A stretch of DNA of 34,472 nucleotides, taken from the IMG/VR virus record IMGVR_UViG_3300030090_001105, positions 1-34,472 of that record. One strand, 5' to 3'. This document shows positions 562 to 34,472 of this stretch, in pieces. The translations under genes and the position numbers were made by a program. This DNA is from a virus. Each line of letters starts with the position of its first letter. The first letter of the stretch is position 1. The notes beneath the pieces are model-generated. The model made no database searches and was not told where the DNA came from. It saw nothing but the letters and a program-made list of their open reading frames with translations.

Positions 562-2889
562 ATGGCAAGAGTATCGGTACAACTTACAAATTTCACTGCG
601 GGTGAATTATCACCTCGTTTAGATGGTCGTAATGATTTATCTAAATATCCTTCTGGATGTAAAACTTTAGAAAATTTTATTGTCTATCCACATGGTAGTG
701 CAGCAAGAAGATCAGGTTCACAATTTATATCTGAAGTAAAAACAAGTTCTAAAAAAACAAGACTAATTCCTTTTGAGTTTTCAACAACACAAACATATAT
801 TTTAGAATTTGGCGATCAGTATATCAGAGTTTATAAAGATAAAGGTCAAGTTCAATCAGGTGGTTCAGCAGTAGAAATATCTACACCTTATCTTGAAGCA
901 GAGTTATTTGATCTAAAGTTTGCACAGAGTGCAGATGTTTTATACATTTGTCATCCTAATCATGAGGTGGAAAAGCTATCAAGAACATCTCATACAAGTT
1001 GGACTTTAGCAGATGTAGATTTTACTAAAGGACCAATGCAAGATGCAAACACAACTACAACAACTTTAAATCCGGGAGCAACTGCTGTTGGCACTGGTGT
1101 TTCATTGGCAGCTTCAGCAACCACAGGAATAAATAGTGGATCAGGATTTCAATCAACAGATGTTGGTAGATTTGTTTTTTTGCATGGTGGATATGCAAAG
1201 ATTACAGGTGTAACAGATACTACAAATGCAACGATTGAAATACTAACAACATTAAGTGCATCTACTGCTACAGCAGATTGGAGACTTGGAGCTTTTTCAG
1301 ATACTACAGGTCATCCTTCTTGCGTAACCTTTTTTGAACAACGATTAGTTTTTGCAGGAACAACTAATCAACCACAAACAGTTTTCTTTTCTAAATCTGG
1401 TGATTATGAAAACATGGATGCTAATATTGGTGGAACGATAGCAGATAGTGATGCAATCATTTATACTATTGCATCGAACCAAGTTAATGCTATTCGTTTT
1501 ATGACCGCTACAAGAACATTAATTATTGGAACAGCAGGTGGTGAATTTTCAGTTTCAGGGGGAGGAGCAGATGTTGCAATTACTCCAACAAATATTTTAA
1601 TTAAAAAACAATCAAATCATGGTGCAGCTAATTTAGATGCTTTGGCTGTAGGTAATGTTACTTTGTTTATGCAAAGAGCTAGAAGAAAAATGAGAGAACT
1701 TGCATATAACTTTGATGTTGATGGTTACATTGCTCCTGACATGACTATACTTGCTGAACATATTACTGAAGGTGGAATAACTCAAATGGCTTATCAACAA
1801 GAACCTAATCAAATTATTTGGTTAGTTCGTGGTGATGGTGAACTTATAGGATTTACTTATCAAAGAGAACAACAAGTAACAGCTTGGCACAGACATATTT
1901 TTGGTGGCAAGTTTGGTGAAGCAACTATTACAGTAACTGATTTTGCAAATATAGCAGATAATACAAAAATAGTTTTGACAAAATCAGATGGTACAAGCAC
2001 AACCTTTAACTCTGCTACATCTGCTACGAGTGGTAAGTTTCATACAACATCTAGCAATAATCAAACAGCAACAAATTTAAAAACATTAATAGATGCAAAT
2101 TCTGATTTCACAGCAACAGTAAGTACAAATACAGTTACGATAAAAGAAACAGCTCCTCAAGCTACAGGTTTTTTAACAATGACTACAGGTGATACAACAA
2201 GACTTGCATCTACAGATGAAGGAAAGGCTATTTGTGAAAGTGTTGCAGTTATTCCAACTGATGATACGGAATATGAAGTTTATATAATTATGAAAAGAAC
2301 AATCAATGGTTCTACAAAAAGATACATAGAAGTTTTAAATACATTTGATTTTACTGAAACAGATAACACTACATTTAATTTTTTAGATAGCCAATTAGAT
2401 TACAATGGCTCTGCTGCAACAACCATATCAGGTTTATCACACCTTGAAGGACAAACAGTTGCAATACTTGCTGATGGTGCAACTCATGCAAACAAAATTG
2501 TTAGTTCAGGAGAAATTTCACTAGATCGTTCAGCAACAAAAGTAAAAGTAGGACTTGCATATACATCTCTACTTCAAACAATGCGAATAGATGCCGGAGC
2601 AAGAGATGGAACTTCTCAATCTAAAACAAAAAGAATATATGAAATAACTATTAGATTGTTTGAAAGTGTTGGTGTAGAAGTAGGACCAGACTTAGATAAT
2701 TTAGAAAGAATACCATTTAGATCATCTGCAAATGCTATGGACCAAGGTATAACTCCATTTACAGGTGATAAAGAGGTCGAGTTTAGAGGCAACTATGAAA
2801 CTGATGGTTTTGTATTTGTAAGACAAACTCAACCTTTACCTTTAACCATTTTATCGTTATACCCAAGGCTAGTAACAAATGACGGATAA
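562..2889 (+). CDS. Tail tubular protein B (T7 gp12-like nozzle protein)
   Basis: A 775-residue protein in the position and size range of T7 gp12 (794 residues), the tail nozzle that continues the tube below gp11. The N-terminus has the pattern seen in this family: FTAGELSPRLDGR, then a YPSGCKTLENFIVYPHG segment, then RRSGSQFI. The middle is rich in beta-forming Thr, Ser and Gly, with a probable inserted Ig-like or beta domain around residues 455-560. The gene follows tail tubular A and overlaps the next gene by 11 bases, so translation is probably coupled. Function rests on family recognition and synteny. Confidence 0.88.
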   Translation: MARVSVQLTNFTAGELSPRLDGRNDLSKYPSGCKTLENFIVYPHGSAARRSGSQFISEVKTSSKKTRLIPFEFSTTQTYILEFGDQYIRVYKDKGQVQSGGSAVEISTPYLEAELFDLKFAQSADVLYICHPNHEVEKLSRTSHTSWTLADVDFTKGPMQDANTTTTTLNPGATAVGTGVSLAASATTGINSGSGFQSTDVGRFVFLHGGYAKITGVTDTTNATIEILTTLSASTATADWRLGAFSDTTGHPSCVTFFEQRLVFAGTTNQPQTVFFSKSGDYENMDANIGGTIADSDAIIYTIASNQVNAIRFMTATRTLIIGTAGGEFSVSGGGADVAITPTNILIKKQSNHGAANLDALAVGNVTLFMQRARRKMRELAYNFDVDGYIAPDMTILAEHITEGGITQMAYQQEPNQIIWLVRGDGELIGFTYQREQQVTAWHRHIFGGKFGEATITVTDFANIADNTKIVLTKSDGTSTTFNSATSATSGKFHTTSSNNQTATNLKTLIDANSDFTATVSTNTVTIKETAPQATGFLTMTTGDTTRLASTDEGKAICESVAVIPTDDTEYEVYIIMKRTINGSTKRYIEVLNTFDFTETDNTTFNFLDSQLDYNGSAATTISGLSHLEGQTVAILADGATHANKIVSSGEISLDRSATKVKVGLAYTSLLQTMRIDAGARDGTSQSKTKRIYEITIRLFESVGVEVGPDLDNLERIPFRSSANAMDQGITPFTGDKEVEFRGNYETDGFVFVRQTQPLPLTILSLYPRLVTNDG

Positions 2890-3768: not shown

Positions 3769-5534
3769 TGCCAAAGATACCAACATTTTCATCGCAAGGA
3801 ACAATTACAACACAGGCTGGTGCTGTAACTACAAATATACAAGCTAATCCAAGAGCAACAACTGCCGGTGCATTAGCAGAGGGAGCTAAAGTTTTAGAAG
3901 ATTATTATATTAAACAAAGAGATAATAATGAAAAACTAGAAGCTAGAAAAAAGTATTATGAATTAAAATCTGAAAAAGATAAAATTTTTGAAAAATATGA
4001 AAACAATCCAGATGAGTTTGCTTCAGTAGAAGGTTTTAACAAAGAGTATGATGCAAAGAAAAATAATGTTTTATCGGGTATAAAAAATAGAAGAGTTAAA
4101 AAAAGACTTACAGATTTATTAGAAATAGATATTGCTGAAGATGTTTATAAAGTTAAAAAAAACTCTTTCAAAGCATTTGAGAGAGAAGACACTGAAAGCT
4201 ATAACAATATTCAAAATACTTTAGCTAACGAATACGATCTTGAAGAAAACGAAAATCTTAAAAATGAAATTCTAATGAAAAGAATTATGGAGGCTAGAGA
4301 TTTTGCTGAAAGACATGATTTAGGTTCAGCTTGGTTAAAAGAAGAGGAAAGAAAAATTAATGGTGATAGCGAATTATTTAATGCAGAGAAAGCTATTGCT
4401 AATAAAGATTTCAAAGGTGCAAAAGAAATATTAAGAAACTCTACATCAATAGATAATGAAAGTTTAGAAAATGAATTATTAAAAATTGAAAAACAAGAAG
4501 TTGAGTATAACGAGACAAGTTTTCATTCAACAAATATAATTAATGGAAACAATACATTAATTGGTGCAGATTTAAAAAATACTACAGAAAAAAAAGTATT
4601 ACAAAATACAGAAAATATTTTAATTGCAGCAGCAGATAAATCAAACTTTAATGCAGCAGCAAAGTTTGCTTATGTTGATGAAGTGTTTGCTAATACAGGA
4701 CTTTTGTCTCCAAGTTATAAAGATTTACTTCAAACTGGTTACGCAACAGGATCAAGTACATCTTTTGATAATGAGGCTGACATTCCTGCTCAACTAAAAA
4801 CTGCTGTGCAAATAGCAGAGATCGCAGATAGAACTGGAAGATTAAATCTTTATACCTCAAGTGAAGAAGAAAGATTTTATAAAAATGTAATTGTTTTAAA
4901 AAAAATTGTTGGCTTAAATGATTTTGAAGCAATTAAAAGAGCAAAAGAATTTGAAATGAATTATGACAAAAAAATGATGTCTGGTATGACTAAACAAAGA
5001 AATAGAGCTTTAGACGAAATAGAAGGAAAATTTGAAGATGTTAAAGCAACAAACATTGGCGAAGTTAGAACATACGCTTCAAGATTATATGATATTTATA
5101 TTTCAATAGGAGTTGATGATAGAAAAGCAAGGGAACAAGTTGTTGAAGATATAGATAAAAATTTAATTGAAATAGATAATCATGCTTATTTTAAAAGAGA
5201 TATTGAACCTTTCAAAACGATTGGTGGACTAGATCAAGTTAAAGGTATGAAAGAATACATTTTAGATAAAAGAATAGAAGGAGCTGATAAAGACGAATAT
5301 TATTTAAGACATAATGGAGGTGGTCAATTTGAAATAAGAAGAAGAGTTGATTTATCACAAGTGTATGGAGATGATAATCAAACTTTAATATTTTATCCAA
5401 AGGATTTATATAAATTATATAAAGAAAGAGAAGCTGAAGGTAAAGAAGTTATCAAACAAGATACTAGAACTCTGCAAGAAAAGAAACAAGAAGCTAAACA
5501 AGAAGCAGAAAGTTTTGAAGGTATAAGTCCGTAA
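3768..5534 (+). CDS. Internal virion protein, T7 gp15-like position
   Basis: A 588-residue protein, mostly alpha-helical and highly charged (Lys, Glu, Asp, Asn). The N-terminal 45 residues are Thr/Ala-rich and low in charge (QGTITTQAGAVTTNIQANPR), followed by coiled-coil-like helices. It lies between the gp14-like gene and the very large gp16-like gene, the place of gp15 in T7-like phages. gp15-type proteins form the ejected periplasmic channel. No enzymatic motif is visible. Stop and next start overlap as TAATG. Confidence 0.7.
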   Translation: MPKIPTFSSQGTITTQAGAVTTNIQANPRATTAGALAEGAKVLEDYYIKQRDNNEKLEARKKYYELKSEKDKIFEKYENNPDEFASVEGFNKEYDAKKNNVLSGIKNRRVKKRLTDLLEIDIAEDVYKVKKNSFKAFEREDTESYNNIQNTLANEYDLEENENLKNEILMKRIMEARDFAERHDLGSAWLKEEERKINGDSELFNAEKAIANKDFKGAKEILRNSTSIDNESLENELLKIEKQEVEYNETSFHSTNIINGNNTLIGADLKNTTEKKVLQNTENILIAAADKSNFNAAAKFAYVDEVFANTGLLSPSYKDLLQTGYATGSSTSFDNEADIPAQLKTAVQIAEIADRTGRLNLYTSSEEERFYKNVIVLKKIVGLNDFEAIKRAKEFEMNYDKKMMSGMTKQRNRALDEIEGKFEDVKATNIGEVRTYASRLYDIYISIGVDDRKAREQVVEDIDKNLIEIDNHAYFKRDIEPFKTIGGLDQVKGMKEYILDKRIEGADKDEYYLRHNGGGQFEIRRRVDLSQVYGDDNQTLIFYPKDLYKLYKEREAEGKEVIKQDTRTLQEKKQEAKQEAESFEGISP

Positions 5535-19662: not shown

Positions 19663-19950
19663 TTATCTATCCTCTTTGTCTAGGGTTGATTTGTGTAATT
19701 CTTTTGCGATTTTTGTATAGACTTGTAGATCATCGTAGCTATCAGCTTTGTAAGGTCGAAGTGTTCTAATTAATTTTAGACCCATCATAATTTTAGCTGC
19801 TTCGTGATCTTCTAGGTCATCTTTAAGTTTGTCTTGCAAGATAACGCTAAACATTACTGCTAATAATCTAAAGTTTTCTTTGTAATCCCCGTATTGTTTG
19901 GCTCGGTCTTCGAATATTTTTTTTAATCTTTTCTCGTCAATATCATTCAT
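19663..19950 (-). CDS. DUF6378-like small protein
   Basis: A 95-residue protein. The pattern RAKQYGDYKENFRLLAVMFS, ILQDKLKDDLEDHEAAKIMM and KLIRTLRPYKADSYDDLQVY matches a common phage domain of unknown function (the YGD-x-x-ENF, then M-x-LK-x-x-R, then DS-xxD-xxGY type, DUF6378 from memory). All helices are conserved in order, and the length is usual. It is preceded by a structured 77-nt stretch and lacks an evident ribosome binding site, which may mean its translation is controlled by that structure. Confidence 0.72.
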   Translation of the reverse strand: MNDIDEKRLKKIFEDRAKQYGDYKENFRLLAVMFSVILQDKLKDDLEDHEAAKIMMGLKLIRTLRPYKADSYDDLQVYTKIAKELHKSTLDKEDR

Positions 19951-19962
19951 AAAATGTTAGGC

Positions 19963-20039
19963 GACTAGGCAGAGAAAAACAACTAATGATCCGAAAGAGG
20001 TAATTGAAAGGGAAACCTCCAAGAAAACTCCGCCTAGTC
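19963..20039 (-). ncRNA. Structured RNA element in the recombination operon (12-bp stem)
   Basis: The minus-strand transcript can form a long-range stem: GACTAGGCGGAG (20039-20028) pairs with CTCTGCCTAGTC (19974-19963), 12 pairs including one G-U. On the plus strand the same position would be an A-C mismatch, so the fold favours minus-strand RNA, matching the leftward operon. Inside the 53-nt loop GAGGT (20019-20015) can pair with ACCTC (20001-19997). It fills most of the largest gap of the operon (19951-20049), just before a gene without a ribosome binding site. It could be a regulatory element or a processing site; it matches no family I recognise. Confidence 0.55.
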
Positions 20040-20049
20040 TCGTTCAAAT

Positions 20050-20316
20050 TTAAACTCTTACACCTGTACCATATTGCGGCTTTGGTGCAAAGTTCTTTTT
20101 TTGACCACCTTTAGGGTGTTCTATTTTAAGATTACCCTGCTGTGGATTTCTCGGACTACTTGGAAAAAAGGTAAGATCGTATGTCCCCGCAGGGATTACA
20201 ATATCTTCTTTTAAATTAAAGTTTTTCCATGTATGTGTCGGTCCATTATCAGATACATTTTCTTGTTTATATACATTAAAATATATAGCTGGTTCTGGTT
20301 TTCCACCTTTCATCAT
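20050..20316 (-). CDS. Hypothetical protein after the annealing protein
   Basis: An 88-residue product with a beta-rich core (PAIYFNVYKQENVSDNG, then LKEDIVIPAGTYDLTFFPSS) and a disordered Gly/Lys/Pro-rich tail (KGGQKKNFAPKPQYGTG). The design of a small beta domain with a flexible tail, next to a nuclease and an annealing protein, is compatible with a single-strand DNA-binding helper, but no OB-fold signature is clear. It overlaps the upstream gene by 4 bases. Confidence 0.6.
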   Translation of the reverse strand: MMKGGKPEPAIYFNVYKQENVSDNGPTHTWKNFNLKEDIVIPAGTYDLTFFPSSPRNPQQGNLKIEHPKGGQKKNFAPKPQYGTGVRV

Positions 20317-20900
20317 GATATTACTCCTTCATTTTCTAACATAGATTTCTTTTCAACCACCTTTTGCATAAGATTTGAATATCCATCATAGTTTGTTTGC
20401 TTATATTCTACTAACCAATCTTTGAATTGTCTCGACATCAAATCTTCAAGACGAGTAAGGTGTGGTGCAGATAGAATTTTATTTATAACCGCCTCTTCAT
20501 TCAATGGCTTGATGTTCCCCTCTAATTGGAGAAAGGTATGTTCTTCTTTGCTAGTTATATCTTCCTCAAGCAAACCAAAGAATGAGAGGCAACGAGCTAT
20601 CGCAAATGTTTCAGCAGCTTGAAGACCAGATATAAACACCGGTTCATATTGGTTCTTTTGGCTGCTATGTGCAGTTCGCTTTAACTCGCCTTTGTAGTAA
20701 AGTTCAGCTCTAACTATGTAGATGTCTTTGTGGCTGTCAACGAGGGAGGTTTTGATGGCTACATCTTCATCTCCGGCAACAGCTTTTATTTGACCCCACG
20801 CAGATAATTTTAACCTATTCGTTTTGCTATCTGTGTATAAGCCTTCTTTCCTACAAATCTTTTTATATTCTTCTAATTTATTTTTTAATGTATGTTCCAT
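20313..20900 (-). CDS. Single-strand annealing protein, ERF/Rad52-like
   Basis: A 195-residue protein. The region LKLSAWGQIKAVAGDEDVAI, YIVRAELYYKGELKRTAHSS and AAETFAIARCLSFFGL resembles the ERF/Rad52-type core: a beta-hairpin block followed by the A-E-T-x-A-I-x-R-x-L-x-F-x-G helix. The C-terminal part is charged and less conserved. Such proteins bind ssDNA ends and anneal complementary strands together with an exonuclease, which is encoded directly upstream (16-bp overlap). It probably supports genome replication and recombination. Confidence 0.75.
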   Translation of the reverse strand: MEHTLKNKLEEYKKICRKEGLYTDSKTNRLKLSAWGQIKAVAGDEDVAIKTSLVDSHKDIYIVRAELYYKGELKRTAHSSQKNQYEPVFISGLQAAETFAIARCLSFFGLLEEDITSKEEHTFLQLEGNIKPLNEEAVINKILSAPHLTRLEDLMSRQFKDWLVEYKQTNYDGYSNLMQKVVEKKSMLENEGVIS

Positions 20901-21520
20901 AGTTCCCTTGCTAGTTTTTTTTGTTTAGTTGTTAGATCAGAATAGTACCAGTGATCCAAATCTGGTTGCTCGACATATTGTGCCATAACTCTTCCATCAC
21001 CATTACTTATGTCTAACAAATTCTGTATTACTTTTGCTTTCTCAATCATGTTATTAAAGTTTTTATCTAAATCTTGTCTTGAAGGTTTGAAAACTTTGTA
21101 ACCTTCAGAGTTTGCATATACTAAATAAAAATCTTTTTTAGTTTCTCTTTCATACACAGATGTTTGAGCAAGATTATGGGGTCTTGGTTGTTCAGGTAGT
21201 TTTTGAACAGATACTGAATAACCTTTTTTTGTTTTTCTAAATTCAGGCGGTAAAATTTTAAGTTCCATACCCTTTGTATTACTTTCAAAGTCTATCCTAC
21301 CTATGATTGGTAAAAATAAATCAATGTGTTTTAGATTTACATATCTTTCACATTGCACATCTTCATCACCAAATATTTCTTCTAATGCTTTTAAGACTTG
21401 TTTTGTAGTTGGTAAGATATATTCTTTCATTGCTTCTCTGCAATGTTTATCTTTCTCGTCTTTGATACCTTCTTTATTTAGTTCTTGTAGTTGTTTTTCT
21501 ATTATTGTTTCTATACTCAT
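20885..21520 (-). CDS. PD-(D/E)XK exonuclease, catalytic part
   Basis: A 211-residue protein with the nuclease core IGRIDFES (Asp) then KGMELKILP (E-x-K), and a following SVQKLPEQPRPHNLAQTSVY segment with the Q-x-x-Y that marks RecB-type nucleases. The N-terminal 75 residues are helical. Cas4/RecB-like enzymes usually have an additional N-terminal domain; that domain seems encoded just upstream in a different frame. Together with the annealing protein it would form a recombination pair like lambda Exo and Beta. Its ATG directly follows an in-frame TAA. Confidence 0.78.
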   Translation of the reverse strand: MSIETIIEKQLQELNKEGIKDEKDKHCREAMKEYILPTTKQVLKALEEIFGDEDVQCERYVNLKHIDLFLPIIGRIDFESNTKGMELKILPPEFRKTKKGYSVSVQKLPEQPRPHNLAQTSVYERETKKDFYLVYANSEGYKVFKPSRQDLDKNFNNMIEKAKVIQNLLDISNGDGRVMAQYVEQPDLDHWYYSDLTTKQKKLARELWNIH

Positions 21521-21779
21521 TTATTTGCTTTCCAAATGTTCCGTCTTCTTTTTTTACAAAAAGATATTTACCAAACATTTTTTGAGCTACATTATTTACA
21601 GCAGAACCAAAGTGAAGTTTATAACCCTTTACTTGTTTTCTTCTTTCTTTTTGGTTCACCATTACATAGTCAATTATATATTTTGCTACAGGCGAAGATA
21701 GTTGGGTAAAAGAAAAATGATCGTACCCCTCACCGCCTGATAGCTTTGATTTTATTACATTTACTTTTTTTATATCCAT
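21474..21779 (-). CDS. N-terminal part of the PD-(D/E)XK nuclease, separate frame
   Basis: A 101-residue product. Residues 20-70 read YDHFSFTQLSSPVAKYIIDY and KGYKLHFGSAVNNVAQKMFG, which is the usual beginning of RecB-like nucleases (S-x-L-S segment, then H/F-G-x-A-V-H/N). It lacks the catalytic D and ExK, which are in the next gene. The two frames overlap by 47 bases, offset by one. The last 15 codons (NEYRNNNRKTTTRTK) are low in information and look like overrun. This could be a split gene, a programmed +1 shift or an assembly error. Confidence 0.65.
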   Translation of the reverse strand: MDIKKVNVIKSKLSGGEGYDHFSFTQLSSPVAKYIIDYVMVNQKERRKQVKGYKLHFGSAVNNVAQKMFGKYLFVKKEDGTFGKQINEYRNNNRKTTTRTK

Positions 21780-22317: not shown

Positions 22318-22399
22318 AAAAAAGAAAAAGAAAAAAATATCAGGTTATTATTTTGATGGTAAGAAACTAATTGTTTTATATGAAACTAAAACTTCTTGA
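22301..22399 (+). CDS. Tiny lysine-rich peptide, 32 residues
   Basis: The frame from ATG 22301 gives MKKKNKKKKKKKISGYYFDG then KKLIVLYETKTS. It overlaps the previous gene's end and the methyltransferase start. SGYYFDGKKLIVLYE reads like a short beta hairpin. No clear ribosome binding site is seen, and the poly-Lys part comes from an A-rich tract, so confidence is low. Confidence 0.35.
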   Translation: MKKKNKKKKKKKISGYYFDGKKLIVLYETKTS

Positions 22400-23477
22400 T
22401 TTATTTTCAGGTATCGGTGGATTTAGTCTAGGTTTAGAAAGCACAGGATATTTTGAAACTATAGCATTTGTTGAGAAAGACAAATTTTGCCAACAAGTAT
22501 TAAAAAAAAACTTTAAAGACATACCAATAGAAAGTGAGGTTAGAAATGTCAAAGGAGAAAGATACGCAGCAGACATTATTACAGGAGGATTTCCATGCCA
22601 ACCATTCAGCGTTGCAGGAAAAAGAAGAGGAACAGACGATGACCGCTACCTCTGGGATGAAACTATTAGGATTATTAGGGAGTGCAAACCGAGGTGGTTT
22701 ATTGGAGAAAATGTTGAAGGAATTATTAACATCCAAGACGGCTTGGTACTCCGACAGGTGCAAGATGATTTGGAAAAAGAAGGTTTCCAAGTCCAATGTC
22801 TTGTTATTCCAGCTTCAGGCATCGGTGCGTGGCATCAAAGGAAAAGAGTATGGATCATTGCCTACTCCAACAGCAATGGATTATATAGACAGAAAAACAA
22901 TGAGACCATCAAGAGCAGCAACAAATCGAAAGACGGGGTATCTATCAGAGATGATAAAGATGTACCCAACTCCAACTCAAGACGCAGCATCGGAAAGAAC
23001 GAAGAAATACAAACAAGGGGGGACACCATTAACAATGGCAGTAAAGATGTTTCCGACACCAACAGCGGGGTGCGAGGAAGGTGGAGAACAAAGCAATCGA
23101 GTAGAGCAAACGAAGTCTGGCGGTTTTGTATTAAGAAAGAAAAACAAACCCAACATGACATTCGGAGCAAAACTATCGGATGCGATACTATACATGGAGA
23201 AGATGTACCCAACACCGACAGCGAGGGATTACAAGGACATAGGCTACAACCCAAGTTGGAAACCGAAACAACAGAAATCAATTCCAACAGAAGTTCTAAA
23301 GAACAATACTCATGGTGGCAAACTCAATCCACATTTTGTGGAGTTCCTTATGGCATATCCTATGAATTGGACAAAGGTAGAGCCAACAGAATAAAGTCTT
23401 TAGGTAATAGTATTGTGCCTTTAATTGCAAGAGAATTAGGTATTGCTATTATGAAAGCTGAAGATGAGACACACTAA
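22380..23477 (+). CDS. C5-cytosine DNA methyltransferase
   Basis: A 365-residue enzyme from ATG 22380. The conserved C5-methyltransferase motifs are in order: I (LDLFSGIGGFSLGLE), IV (GGFPCQPFSVAGKRRG with the catalytic Cys), VI (GENVEGI), VIII (HQRKRVWIIA), IX/X near the end (RIKSLGNSIVPLIARELG). The variable region between VIII and IX (residues about 165-320) is Asn/Ser/Asp/Arg-rich with repeats such as VPNSNS and VPNTDS and probably holds target recognition. No cognate restriction enzyme is adjacent, so it is an orphan that may protect phage DNA. A long second frame overlaps it from 22546 to 23394. Confidence 0.92.
   Translation: MKLKLLDLFSGIGGFSLGLESTGYFETIAFVEKDKFCQQVLKKNFKDIPIESEVRNVKGERYAADIITGGFPCQPFSVAGKRRGTDDDRYLWDETIRIIRECKPRWFIGENVEGIINIQDGLVLRQVQDDLEKEGFQVQCLVIPASGIGAWHQRKRVWIIAYSNSNGLYRQKNNETIKSSNKSKDGVSIRDDKDVPNSNSRRSIGKNEEIQTRGDTINNGSKDVSDTNSGVRGRWRTKQSSRANEVWRFCIKKEKQTQHDIRSKTIGCDTIHGEDVPNTDSEGLQGHRLQPKLETETTEINSNRSSKEQYSWWQTQSTFCGVPYGISYELDKGRANRIKSLGNSIVPLIARELGIAIMKAEDETH
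22546..23394 (+). CDS. Overlapping +1 frame within the methyltransferase (PTPTA type)
   Basis: A continuous 282-codon frame, +1 to the methyltransferase, from ATG 22546 (GAGG 6 bases upstream) to TAA 23394. Its product is not random in appearance: ANHSALQEKEEEQTMTATSG, a WYSDRCKMIWKKK segment, LLFQLQASVRGIKGKEYGSL and four PTPT blocks (LPTPTAMDY, YPTPTQDAA, FPTPTAGC, YPTPTARDY). It ends GGKLNPHFVEFLMAYPMNWT. Proteins with this organisation (W-K x-LLFQL, PTPTA repeats, LNPxxVEWLMGYPxGWT) are frequent in phage databases as far as I recall. They may be a genuine overlapping gene or a recurrent shadow of the methyltransferase. Undecided. Confidence 0.4.
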   Translation: MSKEKDTQQTLLQEDFHANHSALQEKEEEQTMTATSGMKLLGLLGSANRGGLLEKMLKELLTSKTAWYSDRCKMIWKKKVSKSNVLLFQLQASVRGIKGKEYGSLPTPTAMDYIDRKTMRPSRAATNRKTGYLSEMIKMYPTPTQDAASERTKKYKQGGTPLTMAVKMFPTPTAGCEEGGEQSNRVEQTKSGGFVLRKKNKPNMTFGAKLSDAILYMEKMYPTPTARDYKDIGYNPSWKPKQQKSIPTEVLKNNTHGGKLNPHFVEFLMAYPMNWTKVEPTE

Positions 23478-34148: not shown

Positions 34149-34373
34149 ATGACAGTTGCTAGATTTGATCCAAGATTAATTGATTTGTACAAAGAGCCTA
34201 GACTTTTGTTGCATTTTCAATGGGGAAGAGATAATAAAATTTATAGATATGCTTTAGTTGAAAAAATTGATATAGGTAATATCAACGATTTAACTAAACA
34301 AAAGAAAGATGAAGTAAATCTTTCTGAAGAGGATATTTGGAAAAAGTATGGCATCAGTAGTAGATATTTGTAA
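34149..34373 (+). CDS. Small protein before tail tubular A
   Basis: The start chosen is ATG 34149 rather than TTG 34119, because the latter would read through the hairpin stem. The 74-residue product has MTVARFDPRLIDLYKEPRLL, LHFQWGRDNKIYRYALVEKI and SEEDIWKKYGISSRYL. It overlaps the tail tubular A start by 26 bases. No family is recognised; small genes at this place may be head-completion factors. The window end leaves it complete. Confidence 0.62.
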   Translation: MTVARFDPRLIDLYKEPRLLLHFQWGRDNKIYRYALVEKIDIGNINDLTKQKKDEVNLSEEDIWKKYGISSRYL

Positions 34374-34472
34374 TGGAGCATTAAATCAATTAGGAGCAAC
34401 AACTATACTCTCACTTACAGAAGATAGTAAAAATGCTAGACTACTCAATGCTAGATATACTCAAGTTAGAGA
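34348..34472 (+). CDS. Tail tubular protein A, 5' end (continues at base 1)
   Basis: ATG 34348 begins M-A-S-V-V-D-I-C-N-G-A-L-N-Q-L-G, and the frame is open to the last base. The sequence from 34372 equals that from base 1, where the frame goes on to 558. It starts inside the end of the preceding 74-residue gene, so their translation is probably coupled. No strong ribosome site is seen upstream. Confidence 0.88.
   Translation, partial: MASVVDICNGALNQLGATTILSLTEDSKNARLLNARYTQVR
34372..34472. repeat. Terminal overlap, right copy (circular joint)
   Basis: Same 101 bases as 1-101 with T at 34374 where the left copy has C. Both alleles encode Asn (AAT or AAC) in tail tubular A. The right copy also contains the last bases of the preceding gene's TAA stop (34371-34373), which is not affected by the difference. 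Confidence 0.9.

Follow-up and report, generated by a model that had tools for sequence, protein, structure and literature searches.

What is the role of a 77-nt sequence, capable of folding into a long hairpin, in the middle of a phage recombination operon? The question is raised by a 34,472-nt stretch of viral DNA (IMG/VR record IMGVR_UViG_3300030090_001105), hereafter the window, in which an original prediction had placed a minus-strand stem of 12 bp closing a 53-nt loop. The two ends of the window carry a 101-bp direct repeat (1-101 and 34372-34472, 99% identical), which indicates that the genome is complete and was assembled as a circle. Compared over the full length, the large terminase has 82% identity to that of Pelagibacter phage HTVC010P. 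The phage is a relative of the HTVC010P-type Pelagibacter phages and so of phages of SAR11, the commonest bacteria of the ocean. The HTVC010P-type phages rank with the most abundant marine viruses and form the second most abundant known group of pelagiphages (PMC12753301).

The leftward operon of the window contains, in this order, a nuclease-like gene, an annealing-protein-like gene, a small gene termed here gene 3, the hairpin, a DUF6378 gene, small ORFs and a gene for a DnaA C-terminal-domain protein, and this gene order matches the annotation in cultured pelagiphages. As had been claimed, the hairpin occupies the only sizeable gap of the operon, 99 nt in length (20049-19951) and the largest there. 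The nuclease-like gene is apparently split in the window into two overlapping minus-strand ORFs (20885-21520 and 21474-21779), which seems to reflect a frameshift or a sequencing error, since cultured relatives have a single ORF of about 300 aa. Elsewhere in the window, two plus-strand ORFs that overlap in different frames (22371-23477 and 22534-23394) each match a family of phage DNA methyltransferases (phrog_363, E 3.5e-72; phrog_1008, E 1.6e-31), and the stretch common to both seems to encode methyltransferase-like motifs in the two frames.

Structure and conservation of the hairpin

When the minus strand of the 77 nt was folded as RNA, the energy was -26.2 kcal/mol (z -4.57), a value equalled by none of 200 dinucleotide shuffles, and positions 20039-20028 were found to pair with 19974-19963, exactly as predicted. 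The plus strand folds worse (-19.6 kcal/mol, z -3.62) in keeping with the A-C mismatch that replaces there the one G-U pair of the stem, and in agreement with the strand preference originally read from this pair. The inner stem of 5 bp that had been thought possible was found as GGAGGU/ACCUCU, 6 bp including one G-U (Table 1). As about 1 in 100 shuffles of the gap in the window gave an equally good stem, the window sequence alone is only moderately significant and the comparison with relatives is decisive.

Table 1. The hairpin and its neighbourhood in the window, with the relatives that carry an insertion
Feature	Position	Strand	Evidence
Whole hairpin RNA element, 77 nt	19963..20039	-	RNA fold z -4.57; invariant in 5 same-species genomes; homologous hairpins in >300 loci
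Outer stem, 5' arm GACUAGGCGGAG	20028..20039	-	12/12 pairs covary over 44 distinct arm pairs
Outer stem, 3' arm CUCUGCCUAGUC	19963..19974	-	12/12 pairs covary over 44 distinct arm pairs
U-run opening the loop, UUUU (3-8 U in relatives)	20024..20027	-	at least 3 U at the start of 60/60 distinct loops
5' strand of the inner hairpin, GGAGGU; not in all lineages	20015..20020	-	covaries in the 12 lineages having the inner hairpin; absent from minimal elements
Loop motif CCCUUUC, here in the loop of the inner hairpin	20006..20012	-	CCCUUUC in 49/60, CCUUUC in 57/60 distinct loops
3' strand of the inner hairpin, ACCUCU	19996..20001	-	inner-hairpin covariation
GUUGUUUUU preceding the 3' arm (relatives have (G)UUUU or GUUGU)	19975..19983	-	such a run closes 60/60 distinct loops
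12-nt leader GCCTAACATTTT from hairpin to start codon, without Shine-Dalgarno	19951..19962	-	sequence; distance in relatives 6-25 nt, median 12
Putative single-strand annealing protein	20313..20900	-	so annotated in relatives; HTVC204P relative matches ERF, E 1.6e-8
Gene 3, upstream cistron, small SSB-like protein	20050..20316	-	constant neighbour of the hairpin
Downstream cistron, DUF6378	19663..19950	-	Pfam PF19905, E 7.9e-15
Loci with an insertion between hairpin and DUF6378	L149, L150, L144, L138, L304, L062, L139, L159, L110, L323		

The cultured phages compared were HTVC010P, Skadi, HTVC203P, Lederberg, HTVC034P, HTVC204P, HTVC100P, HTVC035P, HTVC024P and Greip. A DNA search of these phages with the window region gave no match, because the sequence of the stem is not conserved, and protein searches were needed; metagenomic relatives of the window were gathered via the DUF6378 protein. 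An equivalent hairpin was present at the same operon position in 10 of 10 cultured relatives inspected and in more than 300 metagenomic loci. Two of the sequences have peculiarities of their own: the DUF6378 gene of HTVC010P (KC465898.1, 5947-6260) is frameshifted in the deposited genome, where it is annotated as separate small ORFs, and relatives differ in this respect; and a contig from a MAG labelled Woesearchaeota (PBPJ01000001.1), the sole match given by the scan of genomes, encodes a pelagiphage-type DUF6378 protein with 79% identity to that of HTVC034P and probably comes from a phage and was wrongly binned.

Within the species of the window, the 77 nt are unchanged in five genomes and gene 3 is variable. 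Between lineages, the stem arms are unrelated in sequence (GACUAGGCGGAG/CUCUGCCUAGUC in the window, GGUGUGGUGGAAG/CUUCUGCCAUACC in HTVC010P, GCUUUGGGGGAG/CUUCCCCAAGGC in Skadi, UAGCAGGGUGGGG/CCCCACCUUGCUA in HTVC204P and CUAUCCCUAGGG/CCCUAGGGGUAG in an apparent freshwater group, a label read from the divergence of the contigs and not from the sampling site). As MAFFT was unable to align the whole hairpin family, arms and loops were analyzed apart. Over the 44 distinct arm pairs, 99.4% of the cells of the outer stem are standard pairs; double changes occur at each of the 12 pairs, several of which show all six pair types, the sequences compared being related, so that these counts are not independent events. 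Covariation of the outer stem was 1.101, compared to 0.282 +/- 0.023 for shuffled arms and at most 0.334 for slid partners, calculated on arms that had been selected in a stem-finding step and connected via an invariant linker, a procedure that favours pairing. The slid controls, together with per-locus shuffles that reached the observed stem in 0-1 of 100 cases in 11 lineages, show that this bias does not explain the covariation. The inner hairpin, scored in the 12 lineages where it is present, gave 1.369 compared to 0.257, and its absence from some lineages makes it an optional part of the element. Compensatory changes in homologues, which the original prediction had proposed as its own check, are thus present in both the outer stem and the inner hairpin.

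In contrast to the arms, which are kept for pairing only, the loop is nearly invariant in part of its sequence: each of the 60 distinct loops starts with at least three U, contains CCUUU or CCCUU (CCUUUC in 57, CCCUUUC in 49) and closes with a (G)UUUU, UUU or GUUGU-like run. CCUUUC is displayed in the loop of the inner hairpin in the HTVC010P-like, window and L007 groups, and the smallest form of the element is a 13-bp stem with UUUUUUUCCCUUUCCGUUUU.

A descriptor scan found exactly one copy in the genomes of the window, HTVC010P, Lederberg, HTVC203P and HTVC034P, and one copy in 318 of 343 sequences, never two, on the sense strand. With a covariance model built from the arms and a synthetic linker (R2), the cultured elements were recovered with values between 1e-2 and 1e-8, that of the window with 0.011; the model misses two loci (L044 and L065), gives just 0.51 for a third (L059), and has an extra match in HTVC203P (1828-1868, minus strand), where a T/C-rich sequence resembles the loop but lacks a strong stem. 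A search of plasmids for the element gave no match. In one apparent freshwater relative (L038, ~3960-4001), the whole hairpin and the Shine-Dalgarno (SD) sequence are deleted and the flanking genes kept; the element may be dispensable, or the loss an assembly artefact. Combined, these comparisons make it near certain that the hairpin is a real conserved structure.

RNA, DNA and family assignment

To which nucleic acid the structure belongs can be read from its pairs and from its folding statistics. The non-Watson-Crick cells of the arms, written on the coding strand, comprise 91 G-U and 6 A-C, a ratio somewhat biased by a stem finder that permitted G-U. With RNA parameters, six representatives gave z values of -3.0 to -6.3 and stems of -18 to -27 kcal/mol; with DNA parameters, two of the six were no better than shuffles (HTVC034P, z -0.8, and Skadi, z -1.0, compared to -3.7 and -3.0 with RNA parameters). 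Pairing pattern and fold statistics both favour RNA of the sense strand, and on the sequence comparisons we consider it very probable that the element is a conserved sense-strand RNA.

These data bear directly on a role in single-stranded DNA, where a hairpin of one strand would serve replication as a priming site or a single-strand origin. The single copy per genome, near recombination and DnaA-like genes, would suit such a role, and the T-rich loop on a structure-only stem resembles the layout of priming hairpins like mitochondrial OriL. The authors of the Skadi genome suggested a rolling-circle-like replication (PMC10504331), which we also counted in favour of this explanation. However, G-T pairs are common (3 of 13 in HTVC010P), the HTVC034P and Skadi folds are significant with RNA parameters only, and the element invariably lies in sense orientation a short way from a start codon; a DNA function appears quite unlikely.

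No match to Rfam 15 was obtained at the gathering threshold for the window and 13 relatives, in line with the earlier remark that the element belongs to no recognised family, and permissive thresholds revealed nothing real. The DUF2815 RNA (RF03084), also a phage RNA family, overlapped weakly with a single relative (18.5 bits for a cut-off of 41.2) and was rejected, as the match covers just the stem end and the SD region. A scan for intrinsic terminators found none at the hairpin, whose loop is 53 nt long and whose 3' arm is followed by GCCUAACAUUUU; with no short loop and no U-tract behind the 3' arm, a terminator was rejected. The Skadi genome, which carries the hairpin element, was reported to contain no terminators, tRNA, tmRNA or 'ribonucleotide switches' (PMC10504331), and the hairpin is unreported in the literature searched, a survey that did not cover the main genomic paper on the group. 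The hairpin is most suitably classed as a new family within a kind already known, the cis-acting phage mRNA structures, outside any named family.

The gene 3 junction and the adjoining start codon

The neighbourhood of the element was also analyzed by a search of the virus collection with the loop sequence only, no protein being used. At least 44 contigs with the stem were recovered, all at the gene 3 junction among the matches listed, and gene 3 was directly upstream in 42 of 42 readable loci among these matches. The gene downstream varies and can be DUF6378, DUF3310 (HTVC204P and others), a methyltransferase-like gene or small ORFs. The position directly 3' of the hairpin is an insertion site, at which methyltransferase-like genes or small ORFs precede DUF6378 in otherwise syntenic phages (Table 1), and the insertions fall behind the hairpin in every case. 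The distance from the 3' arm to the next ATG is 6-25 nt with a median of 12 (168 distinct contexts); 10-45 nt separate the gene 3 stop codon from the 5' arm. From this arrangement, action in cis at the gene 3 junction appears probable.

The same arrangement weighs against a discrete trans-acting small RNA or a metabolite riboswitch, either of which would share the compact conserved structure and the conserved loop. Neither a promoter nor a terminator was found at the hairpin, no U-tract trails the 3' arm, and the element shows strict synteny without a second copy. An interchangeable downstream gene does not fit a ligand switch for one pathway, and a metabolite riboswitch was rejected since the downstream genes are unrelated between lineages and the core is a plain hairpin loop. 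Among the roles originally put forward (regulatory RNA, riboswitch-like element, processing site or small RNA), a structured RNA is upheld by covariation, whereas a small RNA is unsupported and a riboswitch for the next gene unlikely; we give this pair of functions very little credence.

A constant upstream neighbour is also what would be expected of an intercistronic stability or processing element, which after cleavage would cap the gene 3 transcript at its 3' end, or the downstream one at its 5' end, so that an abundant SSB-like protein would be made in excess over the following genes. Differential stability is an established principle in operons with intercistronic hairpins, and the stem has the appropriate qualities, being stable (-18 to -27 kcal/mol), free in sequence and fixed in pairing. 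However, a passive cap needs no conserved loop, while the U-run and CCUUUC are nearly invariant here, and the short distance to the AUG is kept even after new genes have been inserted. Of the alternatives to a protein-binding operator, a hairpin serving the stability or processing of the gene 3 transcript comes closest, and we regard it as conceivable, though doubtful.

Proximity to the start codon could alternatively reflect a direct contribution to initiation. The lack of a ribosome binding site, originally claimed for the next gene, holds for the window, where the start codon at 19950 has no SD, but is not general: the window, HTVC010P (+1.8 kcal/mol) and HTVC203P (-0.5) lack an SD behind the hairpin, and strong ones stand there in Lederberg (-10.3 kcal/mol) and in apparent freshwater relatives. 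About half to three quarters of the genes in these genomes have an SD. A pyrimidine-rich hairpin that draws in the ribosome or sets its position, for instance via S1, at a start often devoid of an SD would account for the first set of phages and for the short and steady distance from stem to AUG. It would not explain why Lederberg and the apparent freshwater relatives keep the hairpin despite their strong SDs, nor why other genes of the operon without an SD have no such hairpin, and such an aid to translation seems unlikely.

In the lineages with an SD, the loop could itself be a switch, in which CCUUUC would mask the SD of the following gene by pairing with it. The complementarity is strong in Lederberg (CCUUUCUUU/AAAGAAAGG) and in the apparent freshwater, L044-like relatives (CCUUUCGUUGU/ACAACAAAAGG), and a locus's own leader performs better than permuted leaders, 33 of 5000 being as good. 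However, any CCUUU complements any SD and the permutation excess comes from these two lineages, while phages without an SD (window, HTVC010P, HTVC034P, Skadi) conserve the motif just as well. Moreover, with 0-5 nt left to span the 12-bp stem, the pseudoknot presumably cannot coexist with the stem. An H-type pseudoknot with the SD was rejected as a general mechanism, since the complementarity exists in some lineages only and the linker is too short; we consider switching by this route very improbable.

A candidate operator and its known parallels

A stem kept for structure only, with a pyrimidine loop conserved in sequence and a start codon close by, is the anatomy of a protein-binding mRNA operator. 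The reading that we prefer, with a probability of about 0.4, is that the element is a cis-acting operator or processing hairpin on the recombination mRNA, the loop of which would be bound by a protein that controls expression from the junction onward. The hairpin would sit in a polycistronic mRNA between gene 3 and the next cistron, where the long stem would display a single-stranded loop made of the U-run, CCCUUUC and UUUU, alone or on the inner hairpin. With its base 6-25 nt from the next start codon, the stem would lie within the usual footprint of an initiating ribosome, and a protein on the pyrimidine loop might thereby control translation or processing of the mRNA.

As regards the protein partner and the direction of the effect, we infer that the gene 3 product itself is the foremost candidate and that its accumulation as an SSB to a sufficient level would turn down the replication and nucleotide genes that follow. 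Gene 3 follows the nuclease and annealing-protein genes, a place where phages commonly put an SSB gene. In a relative, its product is composed of a small beta domain and a disordered tail, and in some lineages it ends with an acidic-aromatic EYTF/DDYTF, presumably reminiscent of SSB tips. Searches of gene 3 against family profile libraries gave no match to an SSB family, and those against the PDB, by sequence and by fold, gave nothing conclusive, the fold search returning no match; a fold match to a phage SSB was weak (E 0.18, prob 0.91). From position and architecture we infer that gene 3 encodes an SSB, and as binder of the loop its product is a tentative candidate. The features of an SSB operator that are present are a site beside the initiation region (168 contexts) and an unpaired pyrimidine-rich target (60/60 distinct loops).

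Several observations stand against a protein-binding operator, the failure of gene 3 to match an SSB family among them. Gene 3 of the window is very divergent (18-22% identity) while the form of the hairpin is kept, close start codons may merely reflect a compact genome, and the apparent freshwater relative L038 is without the element. If the element is such an operator, any gene placed next to it by evolution would come under the same control, and it might represent a new class of phage RNA operator, by which an SSB-like protein feeds back on its own recombination operon via a U(n)CCCUUUC hairpin; we put this forward as a speculative extension that is rather unlikely as a whole. As far as the literature was searched, the hairpin would be the first structured RNA described in the HTVC010P-type group. 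Single in copy, strictly placed and present in cultured phages with a cultivable host, it offers a handle on post-transcriptional control in phages among which Skadi, for instance, encodes no RNA or DNA polymerase of its own (PMC10504331).

Known systems share parts of this design. The stability hairpins of the REP and puf type are likewise stable, intercistronic and kept by pairing, but the present element differs from them in its conserved loop sequence and in being confined to a single operon junction. The gp32 protein of T4 and RB69, an SSB, binds a structured leader adjoining the start (PMC535899); both cases place a structured element by the initiation region of a recombination or replication mRNA, with structure kept and sequence diverged, and the SSB-like gene 3 product would be the counterpart of gp32. 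The gene 32 operator, however, lies in the SSB gene's own leader and consists of a pseudoknot and UUAAA repeats, whereas the pelagiphage element is a plain hairpin, with an optional inner hairpin, downstream of the SSB-like gene. In M13, the gene V protein represses via the mRNA operator GTTTTTGGGGCTTTTC (PMC5405960), and in M13/f1 the regulator is again the phage's own ssDNA-binding protein, a part for which the SSB-like gene 3 product is the candidate here, acting on an oligo-U/pyrimidine target in the leader of a replication-related cistron, the gene II mRNA. The M13 target is built around a G4 core and does not require a covarying stem of 12 bp; in contrast, the pelagiphage element carries its U(n)CCCUUUC loop on a long stem directly downstream of an SSB-like gene.
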